Source: Salinarchaeum sp. Harcht-Bsk1
GTDB lineage: Archaea > Halobacteriota > Halobacteria > Halobacteriales > Salinarchaeaceae
Assembly: GCF_000403645.1 (NCBI RefSeq)
Contig: NC_021313.1
Span: 2,189,014 to 2,253,013, forward strand
Direction of reading: 5' to 3'
DNA length: 64,000 nt
A program made the position numbers and the translations under genes. The notes beneath the pieces are model-generated. The model searched no databases and was not told the DNA's origin. It saw nothing but the letters and a program-made list of their open reading frames with translations. Of this stretch, positions 3,776 through 51,881 are shown piece after piece (the stretch's first letter is position 1; the number at the start of each line of letters is the position of its first letter).

Positions 3776-4326
3776 TGCGCCGACTCATGCTCGCGATCGG
3801 CAGTGCCTCGACGGCCGCGGGCGCGACGTTGGTGCTCACACCGATGTCCGCTCCGGTCGCACCGCCGGTCGTCCCCGCTCTCGGACTCGTCGTCGTGCTC
3901 GGACTCGCACTGGGCGGACTCGGTGCCGTCCGTCGGGCGCGGGAACGCCCGGCAGCGACGTCGCTGGCCGATACTCGCGATCGAACCGCCGTCGACGCGC
4001 CCGGGGATGCGTTCGATCGCACGCTCGCGTCGATCTCCGCCCGAGTCGACGAGGAAGAGCGCGCCCCGGTCCGAGACCGGCTGGCGGCCACTGCGGTCCA
4101 GGTCGTCGCGGACGCCGAGGACTGCTCGCGGGAGACCGCTCGAAGGCGCATCGATCGAGGCACCTGGACGGACGACCGGGCGGCAGTCGCGTTCTTCGCA
4201 GACTCGGTCGAGCACGCGCCCTCGCTCCGCGAACGGGTTCGACGCGTCCTCGCCGGCGAACCGACGTTCGCGGTCCGTGCCCGCCGCGTAATCGACGAGT
4301 TGGCCGACCGGGAGCGAGAGCCGTGA
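3775..4326 (+). CDS. Two-helix membrane protein of the DUF58 cluster
   Basis: A 183-residue protein starting with GTG that overlaps the previous stop by one base. Two membrane helices at about residues 3-25 and 33-50 are followed by a charged, Arg-rich cytoplasmic domain. I know similar proteins from haloarchaeal DUF4129/DUF58 clusters (my recollection is DUF7269), but no function has been assigned. The overlapping frames imply translational coupling with its neighbours, so it is probably a subunit or partner of the DUF58 protein. Confidence 0.72.
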   Translation: MRRLMLAIGSASTAAGATLVLTPMSAPVAPPVVPALGLVVVLGLALGGLGAVRRARERPAATSLADTRDRTAVDAPGDAFDRTLASISARVDEEERAPVRDRLAATAVQVVADAEDCSRETARRRIDRGTWTDDRAAVAFFADSVEHAPSLRERVRRVLAGEPTFAVRARRVIDELADREREP

Positions 4327-5714
4327 ACGGGGAGCAGTTCGAGCCTGGGGTCGAGCGCACGGATCGCTGGCGTGGCATCGGCGTAGCGACGGTCGTCGCG
4401 GCGAAGCTGGGCCTTCTGACTCGCCAGCCGCCACTGTTGCTCGTCGGTGGCGTAGGTGTGGCACTGCTCGCGTACGCCCGGCTCGTCGCGCCCCCGCCAG
4501 CGACGCTCGCGGTGCGACGGACGATCGACGACGCGGACGACTGTGCGACCGATGGGGGCAACGTCACGTGCGAAGTAGACGACGGCGAGCCGGTACCGGC
4601 GTCTGGCGGGGATGGATCCGATCGTCGCACTGGTCCCGCAGGCGCTGACGCCCGAACGCACCGCAGCGTCACGCTCACTGTCGAGAACGTCGGCGATCGG
4701 ACGCTGCCCCACGTTCGCCTCGTGGATGCACTCCCGGCGGGCATCGAGGTTGTCGACGGAACCCCTGGCATTGGCACGACCCTCCGTCCAGGCGACGTTG
4801 CGACCACGACCTACACCGTCGCGGTTCGATCCGGCACGCACGCCTTCGAACGGCCGTTCGCCGTGGTTCGAGACGTGGCCGGCGTCGTCGAGCGACGGGC
4901 GCGGCTCCCCGTCGACGACGGACGGACCGTCGAAGCCGACGCCACGACGCGGCTCCGCGAGTCGCCGCCGCTCCGGACGCGCTCGGCGCGGTTCGCCGGC
5001 GACCACCCGACAGACGACCGTGGCGAGGGAATCGCCTTCGAGAGCGTCCGCGAGTACCGCCACGGTGACGCGCCGAGCCGGGTCGACTGGGGCCGATTCG
5101 CCCGCACCGGCGAACTCGCGACGGTCGACTACCGCCAGGATCGCGGTGCGTCAGTCGTCGTCGCCGTCGACGCGCGCCCGGTCGCAGTCCGCGCACCGTC
5201 CTCCGATCGCCCGACTGCCGTCGAACGCGCGCTCGACGCCGCGAGTGCGATCGCCGACCGATTCGACGCCGACGGGCACCAGGTCGGCGTGGCGCGACTC
5301 GGTCCGGATCGACGGTGGATCGGCCCGGGCAGTGGCGCCGCGCACCGTCGCCAGATCGAGGCGCTGCTAGCCGAACGGCCCAGGAGCGTGACGTCGCCCG
5401 GCGCGGCAACGCCGTCGGGGAGCTCGACGGTCGCCTGGGTCCGCGAGCGGCTCGGGAGTCGCGCCGAACTGTTCCTCCTCTCGCCGCTCCTCGACGGTGA
5501 CGCGGTCGAGCTAGCGACGCGACTCGACGCGACCGGGACGCCAGTGACGGTCGTGAGCCCGGATCCCACCGACGACGCCACTGCAGGCCGCGCGCTGGCG
5601 GGGATCGAACGCAGCCACCGCGTCGCCTCGCTCCGAGGTGCCGGGCTTCCAGTCGTCGACTGGCCGGCGGACCGACCGCTCGAGCGTGCGATCCCTCGGG
5701 AGGTGACGCGGTGA
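4323..5714 (+). CDS. DUF58 domain protein (von Willebrand A-like fold)
   Basis: A 463-residue protein with two N-terminal membrane helices (about residues 17-52), a CARDB-like middle (SVTLTVENVGDRTLPHVRL, about residues 115-200) and a C-terminal DUF58 domain. The diagnostic segment is REYRHGDAPSRVDWGRFART, followed by VVVAVDAR, which resembles the start of a vWA fold. DUF58 proteins usually work with a MoxR-type AAA+ ATPase in assembly or maturation of envelope components. The GTG start overlaps the previous gene's TGA by four bases (GTGA). No MoxR gene is within the window near this cluster. Confidence 0.85.
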   Translation: MNGEQFEPGVERTDRWRGIGVATVVAAKLGLLTRQPPLLLVGGVGVALLAYARLVAPPPATLAVRRTIDDADDCATDGGNVTCEVDDGEPVPASGGDGSDRRTGPAGADARTHRSVTLTVENVGDRTLPHVRLVDALPAGIEVVDGTPGIGTTLRPGDVATTTYTVAVRSGTHAFERPFAVVRDVAGVVERRARLPVDDGRTVEADATTRLRESPPLRTRSARFAGDHPTDDRGEGIAFESVREYRHGDAPSRVDWGRFARTGELATVDYRQDRGASVVVAVDARPVAVRAPSSDRPTAVERALDAASAIADRFDADGHQVGVARLGPDRRWIGPGSGAAHRRQIEALLAERPRSVTSPGAATPSGSSTVAWVRERLGSRAELFLLSPLLDGDAVELATRLDATGTPVTVVSPDPTDDATAGRALAGIERSHRVASLRGAGLPVVDWPADRPLERAIPREVTR

Positions 5715-6202
5715 CGGGACGACTCGCTGGCGCGTGCGCGACGCTCGCCAGTACGATCGCGCTCGTGCTCGTGGGAACCGGCACCTGGCCGACCCTGCTC
5801 GGCGGCGCGGGCCTGGCCCTGCTCCTGGGTGGGCTCGTCCGACGCCGGATCGGCGCGGTCACGCTCGGCTGTACCGGGTCGTTCGCCGCGCTTCTCTTCG
5901 CGACCGCGAGCGATCCCGGAACCGCCGGCGGACTCGGATCCTGGTCGGTCGTCGCCGCAGGTGGTGCGATCGTCCTGGCGTGGACGACTGGCCGGACGAG
6001 CGTGCAGCTTCGGACCGAACTCCCCCGAGCGAACACGACTCGGTTGGAAGCGACCCACGTCGCGGGGACGACGGTGCTCCTCGGAGCGGCTTGCTCGATC
6101 GCGCTCCTTCCAGGGGTTATCACGATCTACCCCTCCCCGCTCGGCCTCGTGCTCGTGGCCTTCGGTGCGATCGTGCTGAGTGCTGGGCTGTTCGTCGACT
6201 GA
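5711..6202 (+). CDS. Multi-pass membrane protein ending the DUF58 cluster
   Basis: A 163-residue, very hydrophobic protein with about six membrane helices (for example LASTIALVLVGTG, AGLALLLGGLV, LGLVLVAFGAIVLSAGLFV). The GTG start overlaps the DUF58 stop by four bases, so the gene is co-translated. It corresponds to small haloarchaeal membrane proteins at the end of DUF58 clusters (I recall the name DUF7519). No catalytic motif is visible. Confidence 0.7.
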   Translation: MTGRLAGACATLASTIALVLVGTGTWPTLLGGAGLALLLGGLVRRRIGAVTLGCTGSFAALLFATASDPGTAGGLGSWSVVAAGGAIVLAWTTGRTSVQLRTELPRANTTRLEATHVAGTTVLLGAACSIALLPGVITIYPSPLGLVLVAFGAIVLSAGLFVD

Positions 6203-6710
6203 CTGGCAGACTCCTGTGGCCGCCGTCGACCTCCTCCGTGGCGATCGCACCGGAACCGTCCCGTACTGTCGCAAGGTCGTCACACGACTGGGGCGGCAGT
6301 AGTGCCCAGTCGTCGAACGGTCGGGTCACCACTCGACGACGCGTTCACCGATCGGCGGCAATTCCTGCCGCGCGCTCGATCGCTGGGACGGAGATTCGGT
6401 GCAATTGTTGCCAGATGGGCAATCTCTAGGAACGTTCCCACTCGACGAACGGCCGCTTCTCGGGCGGTCTGGGCGTCGATTCGTGGACGCTCAACTACCT
6501 AATACGCCCTAGAAGAACTATGATCTCCGACGGCCGTCTGCATAGGACGATATTATTGGACAAATAACAACGCTAAGTCTTATATCCGTATGGATCAAGC
6601 AGACTATTCGTGATGCGCAATACGAACGATCACGAATTAGGTGAAATTGAGTACGATTGGAGGTTTGCGGGCTGCAGTACCGGGCGGGCCGAAACCGAGG
6701 TGACGTCCGT
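6203..6710 (+). promoter_or_regulatory. Intergenic and promoter region upstream of the Amt-PII gene
   Basis: 508 bases without a convincing gene. Bases 6545-6655 are clearly AT-richer than the surroundings. A TATA-like box, CTTATATCC, lies at 6579-6587, which would give a leader of about 100 bases. A Shine-Dalgarno sequence, GAGGTGA, at 6697-6703 is seven bases before the ATG at 6711 and decides that start. The long leader leaves room for nitrogen-responsive control, but I see no defined operator. Confidence 0.55.
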
Positions 6711-8399
6711 ATGGTAGGCGCGATGCCGCTGCAGATCGGCGCCGAGACCGCGGGTGCGATCAACTACACCTGGATCCTCGTCGTCTCCTTCCTGATCTTC
6801 TTCATGCACGCCGGCTTCGCGATGCTCGAGGCCGGGCAGGTCCGCTCGAAGAACGTCGCGAACCAGCTCACGAAGAACCTGCTGACCTGGTCAGTCGGCG
6901 TGCTGGCCTTCCTGCTCGTCGGAGCGGGGCTCGCACCACTGGTGGGCGACCTCGTCGGCTCGACCGGCGGCTGGTCGTTCACGCCGAACAATTCGCCGGC
7001 GTCCTGGGGAACCGGCTGGTTCTACGGGGCCGTCTTCGCCATGACCGCGGCGACGATCGTCTCCGGGGCCGTGGCCGGCCGCGCGAAGCTTCGCGCGTAC
7101 GTCACGTACACCATCGCGCTGGCAGCCGTGATCTACCCGGTCGTCCTCGCGTTCACCTGGTCCGGCTACTGGGTCAACGAGTTCCTCGGCACGTTCTTCC
7201 AGGACTTCGCGGGCGGCATGATCGTCCACGGCATGGGCGGTATCGCCGGCCTCACCGCGGCCTGGGTACTCGGTCCGCGCATGGATCGGTACAACGAGGA
7301 CGGCAGCGTCAACGTCATTCCCGGTCACTCGCTGACCTTCGCCGTGCTCGGCACGCTCCTGCTGGCCTTCGGCTGGTACGGCTTCAACGTCGGCACGGCA
7401 TCGGTCGTGGTTCAGGAGGGCGGGGAATGGGTGCTCAACGGTGACACGCTCGGCCGCGTCGTCCTCACGACCACCGTCGCGATGGCGATGGGCGCCATCG
7501 GCGCAGGCTCGGTCGCCTGGGCGAAGACGGGCAAGGTCGACACGCTCTACGTCGCCAACGGCCTGCTGGCCGGCCTCGTCGGCATCACGGCCATCCCGAA
7601 CGTCGCGACGTGGTGGGGCGCGTTCGTCGTCGGCGGCCTCGCCGGCGCTCAGCTGCCCCTCGTCTTCGGCTTCGTCGAGAAGACGCTCAAGATCGACGAC
7701 GTCTGTGCGGTCTTCCCGGTCCACGGCTCCGCCGGCGTGCTCGGCACGCTGCTGTACCCCTTCGTCGCGACCGACGCGGCGCTGGGCGGCACCAGCATCG
7801 CCGACGCCTTCGTCGCGCAGTTCCTCGGCGTCGCGATGATCACGGTCTGGACGGTCGCAGCGACCGCGGCGGTCTGGGGCGGTCTCAAGGCCATCGGACA
7901 GGCTCGCGTCACGCCCGCCCACGAACGGGAGGGCCTCGACGTCGCCGAACACGGCGTCGACACCTACCCCGAGTTCGGCAAGCCCGACGTCGCCACGGAC
8001 GGGGGCGCTCCCGTTCCCGAAGAACAGCTCCGCACCGACGGCGGTTCCTTCGCCACCGACATCGAGATGGTCATGGCGGTCGTCCGCCCGGACAAGCTGG
8101 GCGACGTCAAGAAGGCGCTCGCCGAAGTCGGCGCACCGTCGCTCACGGTAACGAACGTCTCCGGCCGCGGCTCCCAGCCCGCGAAGAAGGGCCAGTGGCG
8201 CGGCGAGGAGTACACGGTCGACCTCCACCAGAAGGTCAAGATCGAGTGCATCGTCTCCGACGTTCCCGCCGAGGACGTCGTCGACGCGATCCGCGACGGC
8301 GCCAACACTGGCGAACCCGGCGACGGGAAGGTCTTCGTCCTCCCCGTGACGCAGGCGACCCAGATCCGCACCGGCGCGACCGGTCCCGAAGCGGTCTGA
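6711..8399 (+). CDS. Ammonium transporter fused to a PII signal-transduction domain
   Basis: The N-terminal ~430 residues are an Amt/MEP/Rh ammonium channel with about 11 membrane helices and both conserved pore histidine regions ([13 protein letters not shown] and [11 protein letters not shown]). A polar linker of ~25 residues follows. Residues from about 453 to 562 are a complete PII (GlnB/GlnK) domain: [19 protein letters not shown]-loop region [21 protein letters not shown], then KVKIECIV and the signature [14 protein letters not shown]. The T-loop keeps the tyrosine equivalent to Tyr51 (RGEEY) but has Trp at the Tyr46 position. In most haloarchaea I know, glnK is a separate gene beside amt. 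Here the regulator that plugs the channel would be tethered to it. No separate glnK is nearby. Reading is continuous with no frameshift. Confidence 0.93.
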
Positions 8400-8548
8400 A
8401 ACCGGTCGCTGCGGAGCATCGTATCCGACGCACTGCGGCCCTCATTTCGCCGCACAATTTTCTCCCGATTATCGTTCCGCCAGCGACGGCACAGAGCCGA
8501 CCCACACTGCCCCCAATCCTGAAGCCGTCACTCTCCGACGCTAGTAGC

Positions 8549-9838
8549 ATGCCCAGCCGCACGGTCGAGCTCGAGGGTCACATCATCGACTCCGGGACGA
8601 TGGAGCGGTGTTTCACGCTCGTCATGGACCTCGGTGGCCACTTCGAGGTCGAGGCGTTCGACATCGGTCGCCACGAGGACGAGGAGTCCTACTGCCGCAT
8701 GGAGGTCGAAGCCGACACCGAGTCCGACCTCCGCGAGATCCTCCACGAACTCAACAAGAACGGCGCCTACCTCTCCGACCCCAGCGACGTGACGGTCGAG
8801 CCCGCGCCGGCGGACGGCGTCGTGCCGCCGGAGTTCTACTCGACGACGAACCACCCGACGGAGATCCGCTGGGAGGGAGCGTGGATCGACGTCGAGTACC
8901 CGGAGATGGACTGTGCCGTGGTGGTCGAGGACGGCGAGTCTTCCGATGGACCGCGCGCCGAAACCCGCGTCCTCAACGGCGTCGAAGAAGGCGATCTCGT
9001 CGTCGTGGGTGACGCCGGCATCCGCGTCGATCCGCCCGAGCGGCCCCGCGGATCCGGCGGCGCCTTCGGCTTCATGCAGGGCGGCGTCTCCTCCGAGCGG
9101 CCCTCCGAATCCCTGATCGGGGAGGTCGCCGACGCCCTCGAGGAGGTCCAGGAGCAGGGCGGGGACGTCCTCGCCGTCTGTGGCCCCGCAGTGATCCACT
9201 CCGGCGGCGCGGACGACCTCGCTGCGCTCGTCCGGGAGGGGTACGTCGACGCGCTCTCGGCGGGCAACGGCTTCGCCGTTCACGACGTCGAGCGGGACAT
9301 CTACGGCACCTCCCTCGGGATGGACGTCGAGACGATGGAACACCCCCGCGAGGGGCACAAACACCACATCTACGCGATCTCGGAGATCTCCCGGCGCGGC
9401 GGCCTCGAACCCGCCGTCGAGGCGGGCGTCGTCGAGTCCGGCGTGATGTACCAGTGCATCGACAAGGACGTGGACTACGTGCTCGCGGGCTCGATCCGCG
9501 ACGACGGTCCCCTGCCCGACACGATCACCGACGCCATCGAGGCCCAGAACGCGATCCGCGAGCAGGCCCGCGAGGCCGACCTCGTGCTCATGCTCTCCAC
9601 GCTGCTGCACTCCGTCGCCGTCGGGAACTGCCTCCCGTCGACGACGAAGGTCGTCTGCGTGGACATCAACCCGGCGACGGTCACGCAATTGCTCGATCGG
9701 GGCAGCGCGCAGGCGATCGGACTCGTGACCGACGTCGGCGCCTTTCTCCCGATGCTCGCCGATGCGGTGCTCGGCGAGGCCGCGCCGAAGGATGGGTGCG
9801 GCAACGATCGTGGCTGTGGAGGTAGCGGAACGAAGTGA
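8549..9838 (+). CDS. TIGR00300 (LOR/SDH-domain) family protein, possible archaeal ornithine cyclodeaminase
   Basis: A 429-residue cytoplasmic protein. The N-terminal LOR/SDH-like region (about 1-180) starts MPSRTVELEGHIIDSGTMER. The C-terminal region contains SAGNGFAVHDVERDIYGTSL, GHKHHIYAISEI and a Rossmann-like tail VVCVDINPATVTQLLDRG. Members from methanogens and cyanobacterial AgrE/ArgZ C-termini have been linked to conversion of ornithine to proline, so NAD-dependent ornithine cyclodeaminase is the best guess. The tail DGCGNDRGCGGSG is Cys/Gly-rich and may bind metal. A hairpin terminator follows the stop by about 60 bases. Confidence 0.85.
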   Translation: MPSRTVELEGHIIDSGTMERCFTLVMDLGGHFEVEAFDIGRHEDEESYCRMEVEADTESDLREILHELNKNGAYLSDPSDVTVEPAPADGVVPPEFYSTTNHPTEIRWEGAWIDVEYPEMDCAVVVEDGESSDGPRAETRVLNGVEEGDLVVVGDAGIRVDPPERPRGSGGAFGFMQGGVSSERPSESLIGEVADALEEVQEQGGDVLAVCGPAVIHSGGADDLAALVREGYVDALSAGNGFAVHDVERDIYGTSLGMDVETMEHPREGHKHHIYAISEISRRGGLEPAVEAGVVESGVMYQCIDKDVDYVLAGSIRDDGPLPDTITDAIEAQNAIREQAREADLVLMLSTLLHSVAVGNCLPSTTKVVCVDINPATVTQLLDRGSAQAIGLVTDVGAFLPMLADAVLGEAAPKDGCGNDRGCGGSGTK

Positions 9839-9895
9839 GCGAAGGCGGTTTTCAACAGCATTCGCGAGCTCCGCAGGCGCGAGCGATTCCCCCGA

Positions 9896-9925
9896 GCCGA
9901 GCGAAGCGAGGCTCGGCTTTTTTTT
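9896..9925 (+). terminator. Hairpin plus T8 terminator
   Basis: GCCGAGC at 9896-9902 pairs with GCTCGGC at 9911-9917 and is followed at once by eight T residues (9918-9925). It lies about 60 bases after the TIGR00300 stop. Confidence 0.75.
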
Positions 9926-10000
9926 GGTCCAGATTTTTTCGAGGAGGGTGCCCGCAGCGCGCCTCTGGCGCGCGAGGACACCCGACGAGAAAAAAGGTGG
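9926..10000. repeat. 3'-end module, copy 1
   Basis: Continues from the hairpin/T8 with a second T tract (T6 at 9934-9939), a GC-rich imperfect palindrome beginning CGAGGAGGGTGCCCGCAGCG, and A6 at 9990-9995 (T6 on the minus strand, six bases after the DUF429 stop). The same order of parts recurs near 38020-38131, 42772-42958 and 60545-60660. Here it sits between convergent genes and could terminate both. Confidence 0.6.
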
Positions 10001-10840
10001 TTAGGCGTAGATCTTGCCCTCGATCCTGGTCCGCGCGTCGACCGTTCCTGGCGAGGTCGGCTCCCCCCGGTCGACCGCCATCGTCACGCCGACGGCCGCG
10101 AGCACCGCATCCAGCGCGTCGCCGTCGGGCTCCTCGATCGCTGCGTCGCGGACGGCCGGCGCGACGGTCGCCGGGCCCGTCGCCAGCGCGTCGACGATCT
10201 CGGCGCGACGCTCCTCGGCGGCTTCGTCGTCGTCCTTGTATCCCTCGGATTCGAGGTCGAGCCGATCGAGAGTCACCGCCGGACAGGCCTCCACCAGCCA
10301 GGTTGTGCCGGGGTTCGGGGGCATCATCGGCAACACGCTGGCGTCGTCACGATCGACGAGCGGTGCCAGGACCGCCGAGATGCCGTAGTAGGTGCTCGAG
10401 CGCATGCGGAGGTTGTACGGCGAGAACGGCGCGCCAGTCTCGTCCTCCGTCGCGCGTTTGAGTTCCACGCGGTCCCGGTCGAGCGTCTCCGCCCGATCAC
10501 GGCAGGCCTCGGCCCACTCCGTGGGTCCCTCGGCTCCGTTCGGGAACGCAGCGGCGAACGCCGGCCAGGTCGACGAGTCGATCAACTCGGCGGGGAGTGC
10601 GAAGGGGAAGTCGAGACCGACGATGGCGTCGTCGGCGCCGGCGAGGAACTCGCGGAGCGCGGGGAGGCACGCGTCGCGCTCCCGACCGGAGTTCGGGAGT
10701 GCTTCGCCGGGGTAACAGCCCTCGACGACGAGCGAATCGGCCCGCCGCGTGGCGCTCGCGAGCCAGACGTTCCGTCCGGCGTCCTGGGCGCCGCTGAAGT
10801 CCACGCCGTAGACGCGTCGGCGGCCCGTCGTCGAACTCAT
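10001..10840 (-). CDS. DUF429 family protein (predicted RNase H-like nuclease)
   Basis: A 279-residue acidic cytoplasmic protein. The beginning RRRVYGVDFSGAQDAGRNVW carries the Asp-bearing first strand typical of DUF429/RNase H-fold proteins, and IVGLDFPFALP is the second acidic strand. C-terminal DGDALDAVLAAVGV supplies a further conserved Asp. The fold suggests a metal-dependent nuclease, but members are largely uncharacterised. The start at 10840 (MSSTTGRRRVYG) is chosen over the in-frame ATG nine bases upstream. The gene ends directly at a T6 tract. Confidence 0.8.
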   Translation of the reverse strand: MSSTTGRRRVYGVDFSGAQDAGRNVWLASATRRADSLVVEGCYPGEALPNSGRERDACLPALREFLAGADDAIVGLDFPFALPAELIDSSTWPAFAAAFPNGAEGPTEWAEACRDRAETLDRDRVELKRATEDETGAPFSPYNLRMRSSTYYGISAVLAPLVDRDDASVLPMMPPNPGTTWLVEACPAVTLDRLDLESEGYKDDDEAAEERRAEIVDALATGPATVAPAVRDAAIEEPDGDALDAVLAAVGVTMAVDRGEPTSPGTVDARTRIEGKIYA

Positions 10841-11018
10841 GGCTCCCACCGCGGCCGTGCTGGTACGTTCGTGAGGCCGCTCGACGCCCCGTCACGTCGG
10901 CACATGGCATACCGGTACCCGGCCCTCCTACAAGTACCTCCTGCCCGACCAGGTCCGGTTCGCCGTCCTTCGAGCAGCCAGTGACCTCGATCGTTCCCGC
11001 TCGATTTCCCCTCGCCGA

Positions 11019-11408
11019 TCAGTGCTCGCCGATCGGTAGCACGACGACGGGAACGGTCGCGTCCTCGAGCACTTCTACGGTGGTCGAGCCGACGCCGTCG
11101 GTCGCTGCGTCCGGCGTTCCAGCGCGCGCTCCGAGCACGATCTGGTCGACGTCACGTGTTTCCGCGAGGTCCAGGATCACCTCGGACGGCTCGCCCCGTC
11201 GTTCCACGGTCTCGACATCGACGGTCGCCAGCCGGACGCCCAGCACGTTCAGCGCCTCCTTGCCGTCGCGCGTCGCGTCGGCTCCGGCGTCGTCGGGTCC
11301 CACCACGGCGAGCGCGACGACGTCGTCTCCCCGATCGAGTCGGTCGTCGAGATAGTCGGCCGCTGCCGCCGCCGTGTGAACGGTATCGACTGCCAGGAGG
11401 CTGCGCAT
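11019..11408 (-). CDS. Universal stress protein family (UspA-like)
   Basis: A 129-residue alpha/beta protein beginning MRSLLAVDTVHTAAAAADYL, with the nucleotide-loop region VLGARAGTPDA ... GVGSTTVEVLEDATVPVVVLP near the C-terminus. The canonical Gly-x2-Gly-x9-Gly-Ser ATP loop is only partly preserved, so it may or may not bind ATP. It stands alone, divergent from the cis-prenyltransferase gene. Confidence 0.85.
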   Translation of the reverse strand: MRSLLAVDTVHTAAAAADYLDDRLDRGDDVVALAVVGPDDAGADATRDGKEALNVLGVRLATVDVETVERRGEPSEVILDLAETRDVDQIVLGARAGTPDAATDGVGSTTVEVLEDATVPVVVLPIGEH

Positions 11409-11556
11409 CGGGTGTGGCTACCGGATCCGTGGGCAAGAGCGTGCCGTCGGCCTGGCGACGGTCGCGCCGGCCGTCCGCGACGCAGCGATCGGGGAGCCCG
11501 ACGGAAACGTACAAATGCGGTGCGTTCGATTCACCCACCGTGACGGAGTGGTCCCC

Positions 11557-12501
11557 GTGATCGAGTGGCTTCGAACCCGCCTCCAACGGGCCTACGAGCG
11601 CCAGCTCGAACGAGCGATCGACGATCCGCCCGAGCACGTCGCCGTCATCCAGGACGGCAACCGCCGGTACGCCCGCGAGCGCGGCGACGAGGCGACCGAC
11701 GGCCATCGGGAGGGCGCAAAGACGACGCAGGCGGTTCTCGAGTGGTGTGAGCAACTCGGCGTCGAGGAGCTCACGCTTTACGCGTTCTCGACGGAGAACT
11801 TCGACCGTCCGCAGGAACAACTCGACGTGATCTTCGACCTCGCCGAGGAGAAGCTCTACGAGTTCGCCGACGCCGAGGAGATCCACGAGAACGAGGTCTC
11901 GATCCGCGCGATCGGCGACCTCCCGCGACTACCGGAGCGCGTTCGCGACGCCATCGACTACGCGGAACGGCGGACCGCCGACTACGACCAGTTCGTGCTC
12001 AACGTCGCGCTTGCCTACGGCGGCCGGGAGCGGTTGCTCTCCGCGACCAGAGACGTGGTCGCCGAGGCCGCCGAGGGCGACCTCGATCCGGAGGAGATCG
12101 ACGTCGATACCGTCGCCGATCGACTGTACGACCGCCGGGTCCGCGACGTCGACCTGATCGTCCGCACCGGCGGCGTCCAGCGCACGAGCAACTTCCTCCC
12201 CTGGCACGCCAACGGCAACGAGGCCGCGGTGTACTTCTGCGCCCCGTACTGGCCCGAGTTCTCGCGGGCCGACTTCCTCCGTGGACTCAGAACCTACGAG
12301 CACCGCGAGGAGTCCTGGCGTCGGACCCGCGCTCGGCGGGGGATCGCGCTGCTCCGGGCGCTCGGGGGCGTCGAACTCGCCGAGGCTCGCGAGACGGTGC
12401 GGCGCTGCCGCGACGCGCTGCCAGCCGCGGAGCGTCCGGCCCCCGAGACCGATGCGACAGACGTCGCGGACCCGGCTGATCCGTCGCCCTCCGGCGAGTA
12501 G
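11557..12501 (+). CDS. uppS: Catalytic cis-prenyltransferase (undecaprenyl/polyprenyl diphosphate synthase family)
   Basis: About 314 residues. It elongates isoprenyl diphosphates in cis to make the lipid carrier for glycosylation. The catalytic Asp motif HVAVIQDGNRRYARERGD is near residue 30, with the substrate region YAFSTENFDRP and the C-terminal RTGGVQRTSNFLPW. The segment aligned with the usual C-terminal RRFG (RxG) motif reads EESWR here, so RxG is missing. The GTG start at 11557 is chosen because a TATA-like ACGTACAAATG lies at 11508-11518; an ATG at 11515 would add 14 residues. The C-terminus is extended by an acidic Pro-rich tail. A second homologue with the complementary motif set lies 370 bases downstream on the other strand. 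Confidence 0.9.
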   Translation: MIEWLRTRLQRAYERQLERAIDDPPEHVAVIQDGNRRYARERGDEATDGHREGAKTTQAVLEWCEQLGVEELTLYAFSTENFDRPQEQLDVIFDLAEEKLYEFADAEEIHENEVSIRAIGDLPRLPERVRDAIDYAERRTADYDQFVLNVALAYGGRERLLSATRDVVAEAAEGDLDPEEIDVDTVADRLYDRRVRDVDLIVRTGGVQRTSNFLPWHANGNEAAVYFCAPYWPEFSRADFLRGLRTYEHREESWRRTRARRGIALLRALGGVELAEARETVRRCRDALPAAERPAPETDATDVADPADPSPSGE

Positions 12502-12563
12502 CACGGACGGCTCGTCGCGGTCGCTCCCTGGTTGCGTACGGTCCTACCTGATTCTGCCGTCCC

Positions 12564-12776
12564 TCACTCCTCGAACCACTCCAGCGCCTCGTCGGCTGCA
12601 GGTTCTGCGTCATTCTCGCCGTCGGGTTCGCCGTCGAAGGAGATCGCGACCGCGTCGTCGAGTCGCTCCAGCGCCGTCTCGCGCTCCTCGCCACGACACT
12701 CCAGCCCCGTTTCCTCGTCGATGGCCGTCCAGCCGTCGTCCTCCTCGACGAGGGCGATCGTTCGCTGGCTGCTCAC
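12564..12776 (-). CDS. Small HicB-like protein
   Basis: A 70-residue acidic protein. IALVEEDDGWTAIDEETGLE ... ERETALERLDDAV resembles the HicB antitoxin partial RNase H fold (strand, strand, then an ExxALxxL helix). No HicA toxin is adjacent, so a toxin-antitoxin role is not supported; orphan HicB-like proteins are common in haloarchaea. It sits between the two cis-prenyltransferase genes. Confidence 0.65.
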   Translation of the reverse strand: MSSQRTIALVEEDDGWTAIDEETGLECRGEERETALERLDDAVAISFDGEPDGENDAEPAADEALEWFEE

Positions 12777-17694: not shown

Positions 17695-17766
17695 GCCTGG
17701 GTAGCTTAGCGGTAAAGCGCGTCCTTGGTAAGGACGAGACCCCGGATTCAAATTCCGGCCTAGGCT
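17695..17766 (+). tRNA. tRNA-Thr (anticodon GGT)
   Basis: Acceptor GCCTGGG pairs with CCTAGGC (one G-T wobble). The anticodon stem CGTCC/GGACG closes the loop TTGGTAA with anticodon GGT, and the T arm is CCGGA-TTCAAAT-TCCGG. The discriminator is T, no CCA is encoded, and there is no intron. Confidence 0.95.
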
Positions 17767-17914
17767 TTCTGCGAACCATCGATCCGGAGCGTCAGCGACG
17801 GGTTCCGGTGAGCAGATACGCCGGACGCGGGATTCGAATCCCTGCCAGTCGCAGCGCGAACGGAGCGAAGCGGAGTGAGCGACCGTCTGGCTCTGGATTC
17901 AAATTCCGGCCTAG
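17767..17914 (+). repeat. tRNA-tail element A (behind tRNA-Thr)
   Basis: Bases 17895-17914 are an exact 20-base copy of the tRNA-Thr 3' end (17744-17763), 151 bases apart. Before it, an inverted T-arm-like sequence (GGATTCGAATCC at 17830-17841) and GCCAG/CTGGC create a hairpin whose loop contains a core resembling those of the elements behind tRNA-Ser and tRNA-Leu (AGTCGCAG ... GTGAGCGACCGTCT). No open frame is present. It could be a miniature integrative element, a structured RNA or a degraded att site. Confidence 0.7.
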
Positions 17915-17982
17915 ACTTCTTCCGAGCGCCACACCCCGGAGCGACAGCGATGGGGTCGACGCGACACGTCGAAACGTGTCGG

Positions 17983-37946: not shown

Positions 37947-38019
37947 GGGACCGTGGGGTAGCTTGGTATCCTTCAGCGTTTGGGACGCTGCAACCCCGAT
38001 TCAAATTCGGGCGGTCCCA
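37947..38019 (+). tRNA. tRNA-Pro (anticodon TGG)
   Basis: Acceptor GGGACCG pairs with CGGTCCC. Anticodon stem CAGCG/CGCTG, loop TTTGGGA with anticodon TGG; T arm CCCGA-TTCAAAT-TCGGG. Discriminator A, no encoded CCA. Unlike the other three tRNA genes here it has no duplicate 3' end downstream; it is followed by a 3'-end module instead. Confidence 0.95.
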
Positions 38020-38786: not shown

Positions 38787-38946
38787 ACGCCAGGACAGGG
38801 ATTTGAACCGGAGGAAGACGGTCCTGCTCACGCCCTTCGGTCGTTTCGCGGGCTGCGTCTTCCGGGCACAAATCCCGCCGTCGCCGGTGTCTCGACGCAC
38901 GGTTCACTCGTCGCTGTCGCTCCTCGCTCACGTTGTGCGTCGAGAA
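38787..38946 (-). repeat. tRNA-tail element B (behind tRNA-Ser)
   Basis: Bases 38787-38809 are an exact 23-base copy of 38947-38969, the 3' end of tRNA-Ser, 160 bases apart. On the tRNA strand the interior contains an inverted T-arm-like GGGATTTG (38869-38876), a stem GGAAGACG / CGTCTTCC, and the core GCAGCCCGCG ... CCGAAGGGCGTGAGCAGGAC, closely resembling element C. No open frame is convincing. Confidence 0.75.
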
Positions 38947-38947
38947 A

Positions 38948-39029
38948 CGCCAGGACAGGGATTTGAACCCTGAATCCCGTAAGGGAACACGCTTTCCAGG
39001 CGTGCGCCTTGCCGTTCGGCCATCCTGGC
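38948..39029 (-). tRNA. tRNA-Ser (anticodon GGA)
   Basis: Acceptor GCCAGGA pairs with TCCTGGC, the anticodon stem CACGC/GCGTG closes the loop CTGGAAA (anticodon GGA), a long variable arm (TTCCCTTACGGGAT region) is typical of tRNA-Ser, and the T arm is CAGGG-TTCAAAT-CCCTG. Discriminator G. Confidence 0.95.
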
Positions 39030-42771: not shown

Positions 42772-42958
42772 CCGCGCCGAGCACAGCGAGGCGCGGCCTT
42801 TTTTGGCGGAGATTTTTTGCGCGAGCGGTTCCCGCAGCGAGCGGAAGCGTCCTCGCGAGCGTAGCGAGCGAGGGCTCGATAGTCGCAGCCCGCGCAGGCC
42901 GAAGGCCGAGCAGGAACGTCTATCGGCGAGCGAGGAAATCCGAGCGCAAAAAAAGGTC
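42772..42958. repeat. 3'-end module, copy 3, with an inserted tRNA-tail core
   Basis: Hairpin CCGCGCC/GGCGCGG (42772-42796), T6 (42799-42804), spacer GGCGGAGA, T6 (42813-42818), GCGCGAGCGGTTCCCGCAG, then a ~90-base insertion relative to copy 4 that includes AGTCGCAGCCCGCGCAGGCC ... GAGCAGGAACGTCT at 42881-42920, then A7 at 42948-42954 (T7 four bases after the stop of the RAD55/KaiC gene). It lies between two minus-strand genes, so the plus-strand terminator half has no evident gene to end. Confidence 0.65.
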
Positions 42959-51656: not shown

Positions 51657-51796
51657 GTGCGCGGGACCGGATTTGAACCGGAGCAAGACATTCCTGCTCG
51701 GGCCTACTGCCCTGCGCGGGCTGTGACTTGCAGGGTTCAAATCCGGTCCTGCTCCCTCACTCCAGCCGACTCGCTACGCTCCTCGGCTTCCGTTCA
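51657..51796 (-). repeat. tRNA-tail element C (behind tRNA-Leu)
   Basis: Bases 51657-51681 are an exact 25-base copy of 51797-51821 (the tRNA-Leu 3' end), 140 bases apart. Inside, GGTTCAAATCCGGTCC (51734-51749) is a perfect 16-base inverted copy of GGACCGGATTTGAACC, so the tRNA arm forms a long hairpin stem; GCAAG/CTTGC extends it. The loop core on the minus strand reads AGTCACAGCCCGCGCAGGGC ... GAGCAGGAATGTCTT, closely matching element B and the motif at 42881. Confidence 0.8.
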
Positions 51797-51797
51797 G

Positions 51798-51881
51798 TGC
51801 GCGGGACCGGATTTGAACCGGCGGACCCCTACGGGACAGCGTCCTAAGCGCTGCGCCGTTTCCTGGCTTGGCTACCCGCGC
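51798..51881 (-). tRNA. tRNA-Leu (anticodon TAG)
   Basis: Acceptor GCGCGGG pairs with CCCGCGC. Anticodon stem CAGCG/CGCTG closes the loop CTTAGGA with anticodon TAG. The long variable arm (TCCCGTAGGGG region) is typical of tRNA-Leu. T arm CCGG-TTCAAAT-CCGG, discriminator A. Confidence 0.95.

Follow-up and report, generated by a model that had tools for sequence, protein, structure and literature searches.

Short hairpin units behind haloarchaeal tRNA genes appear to form an undescribed family of tiny mobile cassettes

Integron attC sites stand in an array behind a fixed site, in uniform orientation and with a G|TT junction, and each folds as an imperfect hairpin with conserved unpaired positions, a variable tip and strict Watson-Crick stems. 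Proviruses of the SNJ2 type leave the tRNA gene intact, and their att duplications place a copy of the tRNA 3′ end at the far end, as do the units described here. The units are also short, gene-less, palindromic and haloarchaeal, as are PATEs, IS200/IS605-related sequences and other small haloarchaeal repeats (PMC3119063); PATEs cause no target duplication (PMC3119063). The casposon of M. mazei has 14-nt duplications and 31-nt terminal inverted repeats, and integration of a casposon at a tRNA-Leu-like site has been reported (PMC10359463). A paper on archaeal integrons mentions neither haloarchaea nor tRNAs (PMC9668308).

The window (the whole 64-kb stretch of DNA analysed) carries tRNA-Leu(tag) on the minus strand at 51798-51881 (ARAGORN and Rfam), followed on the same strand by a 140-bp unit at 51658-51797 whose anatomy is common to more than 80 units. 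From the tRNA onwards, the tRNA strand reads tRNA, a hairpin module termed Y, an inverted T-arm copy, a core hairpin and an exact 20-nt copy of the tRNA end. Y occupies 51750-51797 and holds the hairpin AGCCGA...TCGGCT at 51764-51788. The inverted T-arm copy (51734-51749) is a 16-mer that reads GGACCGGATTTGAACC on the tRNA strand and GGTTCAAATCCGGTCC on the plus strand. The core (51683-51731; 49 nt; 97.5 bits with the covariance model R1 described below) has the form GCAAG-T-CA-CAG...GAA-TG-T-CTTGC, is closed by GCAAG/CTTGC and ends in a variable tip. The direct copy, TTCAAATCCGGTCCCGCGCA, at 51658-51677 reproduces without mismatch tRNA positions 54-73, the duplicated target segment, which lies at 51798-51817 in the gene itself. 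The initial annotation had described the end copy as 25 nt long, which is accurate if one includes the CCGG at its flank and the C that follows the tRNA; it was also right that the locus is not a tRNA pseudogene. The 16-nt inverted copy that it reported is present at tRNA-Leu, but a perfect match of this length is unusual, and the general feature is the T-arm part of 11 nt.

The same anatomy was found at two further tRNA genes in the window, in line with the earlier remark that GCAAG/CTTGC and the core are common to these loci (given there as 17767-17914 and 38787-38946). Behind tRNA-Ser(gga) (38948-39029, minus strand; ARAGORN and Rfam), the unit at 38788-38947 on the same strand comprises a direct copy (38788-38807), a core (38813-38863), an inverted arm (38865-38876) and a Y palindrome with arms at 38890-38900 and 38935-38945 (R1, 88 bits). 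Behind tRNA-Thr(ggt) (17695-17766, plus strand; ARAGORN and Rfam), the unit at 17767-17917, likewise on the plus strand, comprises Y (17767-17828), an inverted arm (17829-17842), a core (17844-17891) and a direct copy with one mismatch (17898-17917; R1, 85.4 bits). A solitary core hairpin, GATAGTCGCAG...GGAACGTCTATC, lies on the plus strand at 42878-42924; it has no tRNA-derived arms and matches R1 over the core only (E 2.6e-4). Behind tRNA-Pro(tgg) at window positions 37947-38019 there is no unit, only generic haloarchaeal hairpins.

A chance origin of the end copy at tRNA-Leu was excluded, because none of the 12,552 other 450-bp stretches of the window holds the 20-mer with 3 or fewer mismatches. 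Across fetched loci, which had been picked for element matches, a copy of the tRNA's own end was present in 133 of 203 tRNA flanks, as against 5 of 177 when the end of another tRNA served as the query. Of 81 units that were found through their core, 57 have a direct copy without any mismatch over its 20 nt. The mismatch rate of the direct copy is 0-4% at positions 54-63 and about 9% at 64-73 and rises to 38-64% directly after position 73; the copied block therefore spans tRNA positions 54-73. In 138 units, covariation of the inverted arm with the unit's own tRNA covers the 11 nt of positions 54-64 and is slight or absent beyond them; position 57, for example, has 125 pairs where shuffling predicts 83. 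Almost full-length, degraded inverted copies are present in a few units (Cys, Glu-ctc, Lys, Gly). We considered whether the inverted arm forms a tRNA-like acceptor stem and rejected this, full-length inverted copies being only modestly above chance.

The covariance model proposed by the initial annotation, R1, was built from the three window copies and finds the family genome-wide. In the 3.26-Mb genome of origin, R1 matched 24 distinct places at E ≤ 0.1 (each place counted once; R1 E-values are rough), of which 16 lie directly behind tRNAs, 4 behind a tRNA with a larger insert in between (Phe, Arg-tcg and two at Glu-ttc), and 4 have no tRNA. In all, 20 core places are tied to a tRNA, and units stand behind about half of the tRNA genes of this genome. 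Matches were found in 28 of 40 genomes of relatives at E ≤ 0.1; at E ≤ 1e-6, the class as sampled gave 127 positive genomes out of 146, so that copies occur throughout the class and not in this haloarchaeon alone. In a sample of the phylum, all 21 positive genomes belong to one order, Halobacteriales, with none outside it. In the related genome G002 (GC about 50%), the six tRNAs that were read carry no clear units, and its lack of R1 matches is therefore not only a failure of the model. Almost all units measure 105-180 bp, which leaves no room for a gene; they lie downstream of the tRNA, always in its orientation, and tandem units are common. Searches of Rfam at gathering and relaxed thresholds gave only tRNA and chance-level matches, with tRNA the sole match at the gathering threshold. 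No description of the family was found in open-access full-text papers, a search that covered few subscription journals. These short hairpins look like tiny mobile cassettes that make up a family not yet described. Most of the comparisons use loci chosen for matching R1.

Cores follow the consensus NNN-AG-T-CG-CAG ... GAM-CG-T-CT-NNN. The conserved unpaired positions (CCT/TCC, T/T, CAG/GAC) set like bases opposite each other, so that the palindrome alternates with short mirror repeats. Among 50 distinct cores, the stem gave a covariation score of 0.482 against 0.120 after shuffling, in which the share of the CG/CG pairs is biased by the match demanded of them at collection (only one match in three was needed for the NNN pairs); 76 changes were two-sided and a single pair was G-U. 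In a set of 132 cores with at least two of four outer pairs matching, the NNN pairs contain 2 G-U and 5 A-C among 396 pair cells. The corresponding G-U shares in the same tRNAs are 5.5% for T stems and 3.4% for acceptor stems. We also asked whether the variable core stem is a tRNA-specific barcode and rejected this, since the triplets, as judged by eye, recur at many tRNAs.

These data bear on a structured RNA within the primary transcript of the tRNA, the second alternative of the initial annotation, in which Y and core would be trailer hairpins and the T-arm copies would pair with each other or with the tRNA, controlling processing or making a stable small RNA. The invariable position and orientation behind the tRNA, the strong covariation alongside conserved bases in the internal loops, a leaning of inverted-arm changes towards G-U-compatible ones at two positions, and the better folding of Y as sense RNA (101 of 123 decided cases, 22 being opposite, much as in tRNAs) would all be expected of such an RNA. 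The core speaks against it: its stem has fewer G-U than A-C pairs and falls below both tRNA stem types in G-U content, and its sense strand folds better in only 77 of 138 cases, which is no strand advantage. The acceptor part of the direct copy is, moreover, retained though unpaired in most units, near-identical cores recur at unrelated tRNAs, and units persist even with a large insert between them and the tRNA promoter. On balance, we regard a transcript-borne RNA as a doubtful explanation of the family.

Gain or loss of a complete unit was seen at tRNA-Glu(ctc), where a sister genome lacks the 121-bp unit and its tRNA joins the flank exactly. This flank is 79% identical over about 155 bp to the sequence that follows the direct copy in the genome of origin, from which it follows that the two genomes differ at this locus by exactly one 121-bp unit; orthologous loci are thus not uniformly followed by unrelated sequence. 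Glu(ctc) is the only empty site that is clean at base level, and at this site insertion and deletion between the direct copies are indistinguishable. Leu(caa), where a short stretch at the join does not align, is consistent with an empty site. Gly(gcc) and Thr(tgt) were considered as empty sites and not counted, as their flanks are not convincingly homologous at base level. A contig scan with the neighbouring gene as the query recovered no orthologous tRNA locus. The initial annotation had suggested a minimal element inserted at the tRNA 3′ end with target-derived direct repeats, and this description is well supported, because boundaries are precise, many tRNAs carry copies of their own end, an empty site exists, copies occur in tandem and near-identical cores are found at different tRNAs.

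Such near-identical cores were found at Ser(tga) of genome G080, Gly(tcc) of G109 and Arg(cct) of G144 (closest pairs, 46/47 nt), and at Lys(ttt) of G080 and Gly(tcc) of G161 (57/58 nt), the tRNAs concerned belonging to different genera or families. In these shared-core pairs, the inverted arm at informative cells matches its own tRNA in 143 cases, the other tRNA in 22 and neither in 35. Y and core reassort independently, in that an identical Y is found beside unrelated cores, and vice versa; at the same tRNA of two congeners, Y is mostly 69-86% alike and the core mostly 47-75%. Between cores with 2 or fewer inner differences, stem pairs changed two-sidedly 42 times and one-sidedly 7 times, these being counts of non-independent core pairs and not of events. 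Exchange in which the distal part is replaced on both arms at once, with the T-arm stem remaining local, is the outcome expected of recombination, or of template switching, on a folded hairpin. Ordinary drift in an RNA stem should have passed through G-U intermediates; the two-sided changes and the near absence of G-U favour exchange at the level of DNA over evolution as RNA.

Exchange of this kind could in principle also be the product of ectopic gene conversion and unequal crossing-over, if each tRNA had acquired its unit a single time in the distant past and tips were later swapped by homologous recombination through the T-arm copies. On each side of the core, these copies do give 10-15 bp of sequence in common, and tandem copy number varies. 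Flanks of this size are nevertheless very short for homologous recombination, a two-sided stem replacement beside identical inner cores would need tracts confined within the palindrome, and the first appearance of the inverted arm is left unexplained, for which reasons we hold this origin to be quite unlikely. Given the concerted exchange on both arms and the precise unit boundaries, a mobile or exchangeable DNA cassette is the best reading of the units.

Candidate enzymes were sought in the genome of origin and its class. Cas1 is absent from this genome and present in 19 of 59 genomes of the class, and Y1 transposase (PF01797), as would be needed for IS200/IS605, PATE or REP/RAYT elements, is likewise absent from this genome. 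These results weigh on insertion of the transposase type, in which positions 54 and 73 would be cut in a staggered manner, either by a Cas1 casposase or, for an IS200/IS605-derived palindromic element, by a Y1 transposase. A constant 20-nt duplication of whichever tRNA is hit is what such cuts would produce, and a casposon can integrate at tRNA-like sites, duplicating its target, as reported for the tRNA-Leu-like site (PMC10359463). However, the genome of origin has its 20 tRNA-linked core places and neither enzyme. The units differ from the M. mazei casposon in having a 20-nt and not a 14-nt duplication, no 31-nt terminal inverted repeats, and an inner inverted arm that is tRNA-derived. They differ from PATEs and IS200/IS605 elements in their exact 20-nt copy of their own tRNA, PATEs lacking any target duplication (PMC3119063). 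A cut-and-paste element would, in addition, carry no inverted arm matching each new tRNA, and insertion by either transposase type is accordingly very unlikely.

Of 29 sampled genomes, 28 encode Phage_integrase domains (tyrosine recombinases), a result compatible with mobility of the units and not specific to it. An 8.5-kb element integrated in tRNA-Phe(gaa), at 3945-12678 of locus L125 (G000:C1:2713944-2722677), encodes a tyrosine integrase 43% identical to the SNJ2 integrase; its far att copy has no core, and a core unit lies one copy further out. The large inserts at tRNA-Phe, tRNA-Glu(ttc) and other tRNAs also end in an att copy without a core, and no core was found in the SNJ2 and HHPV4 genomes. 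Phage records and three IMG/VR patterns gave only unrelated matches, with no unit on viral contigs. The SNJ2-type integrase was considered as the mover of the units and is not an obvious one, because the far att copy of the tRNA-Phe element has no core. Units also differ from SNJ2-type att duplications in having no integrase and in having a conserved core and an inverted arm. That the units are scars of former integrations, eroded remnants of proviruses or plasmids brought in by a tyrosine integrase, would agree with the tRNA 3′ end being the usual attachment site and with the presence of an SNJ2-type element in one of the unit-bearing tRNAs. Remnants would, however, be random in sequence and length. 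The units measure 105-165 bp and are alike throughout the class in their conserved core and their layout, and the real integrated elements end without a core; we therefore consider an origin as scars highly unlikely.

In the far tRNA-Phe(gaa) fragment of the 8.5-kb element, a palindromic sequence of ~45 bp interrupts exactly between positions 53 and 54, the junction used by the units. At tRNA-Glu(ttc), a 9.4-kb insert (L134, G000:C1:2849877-2859750; integrase domain at 2850718-2851161) precedes the tRNA end in three exact copies, together with two core units. At tRNA-Arg(tcg) (L127 3162-6929, G000:C1:3160161-3163928), four further copies of the last 13 nt, one of them mismatched, lie within 3.7 kb, and a gene for a CNNM/CorC-type transporter stands between two of these end copies. 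At L139 4511-5194 and 7852-7929 (G000:C1:3099510-3102928), a fragment of a tyrosine integrase lies ~3 kb from a unit that has T-arm-like arms and no tRNA nearby.

A second dispersed structured repeat of ~145 nt, GGAAGGGGCC ... GCAAGCACYGCAG ... GGGGGCTTCC, was found at 18 exact places in the genome of origin (G000:C1; for example L231-L248). Its closing stem alternates with GAAAG/CTTTC, and some copies hold other hairpins or the core of a tRNA unit at about one inner place, the nested core being in L250 (= L074).

Compared with integrons, the units likewise form arrays behind a fixed site in uniform orientation, with a G|TT junction and strict Watson-Crick stems, and fold as imperfect hairpins with conserved unpaired bases and a variable terminal structure. 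They differ in that the fixed site is a tRNA gene, that the arms are GTTCRAN / NTYGAAC, from the local tRNA T arm, and not the R box GTTRRRY / RYYYAAC, and that there is no open reading frame or coding cargo. The integrase search covered the general Phage_integrase domain. As the units have another arm consensus and no cargo genes, the integron serves as the nearest working analogy and not as a claim of membership.

The chances are about even that the unit is a mobile or exchangeable hairpin DNA cassette, non-autonomous, integron-like and gene-less, behind the tRNAs of Halobacteriales. On this reading it is gained or lost as a block, joining exactly at tRNA position 53|54 and at position 73; the tRNA remains whole, the 20-nt copy of positions 54-73 marks the far end, and more units can follow in tandem. 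Through the inverted T-arm repeat, one strand folds into a T-arm stem of the local tRNA, continues as a second stem that has conserved unpaired positions, and ends in a variable tip. This tip (the core) is exchanged en bloc from tRNA to tRNA and from genome to genome, and the T-arm stem continues to match the local tRNA. A trans-acting recombinase may work on the folded hairpin as the integron integrase does on attC, the tRNA T arm standing in for attI; among enzyme classes, the tyrosine recombinases would be the likeliest. A wider proposal, which we advance tentatively and with more doubt than conviction, is that haloarchaea possess a recombination system in which the T arm of nearly any tRNA gene is a universal docking site, folded single-strand hairpins are moved and their tips exchanged as blocks between tRNAs and genomes on a stem that remains that of the local tRNA, amounting to a tRNA-anchored analogue of the integron that consists of hairpins only.

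The units constitute a repeat family that is present in most sampled genomes of halophilic archaea and at about half of the tRNA genes of the genome of origin, and that apparently has gone undescribed. For annotation, partial tRNA ends behind haloarchaeal tRNAs do not by themselves prove an integrated virus or plasmid. The own-tRNA signature on both arms, together with the concerted exchange of tips, makes the movement and evolution of palindromic DNA directly testable in tractable hosts such as Haloferax, and the enzyme, if found, would be a recombinase with general tRNA specificity.
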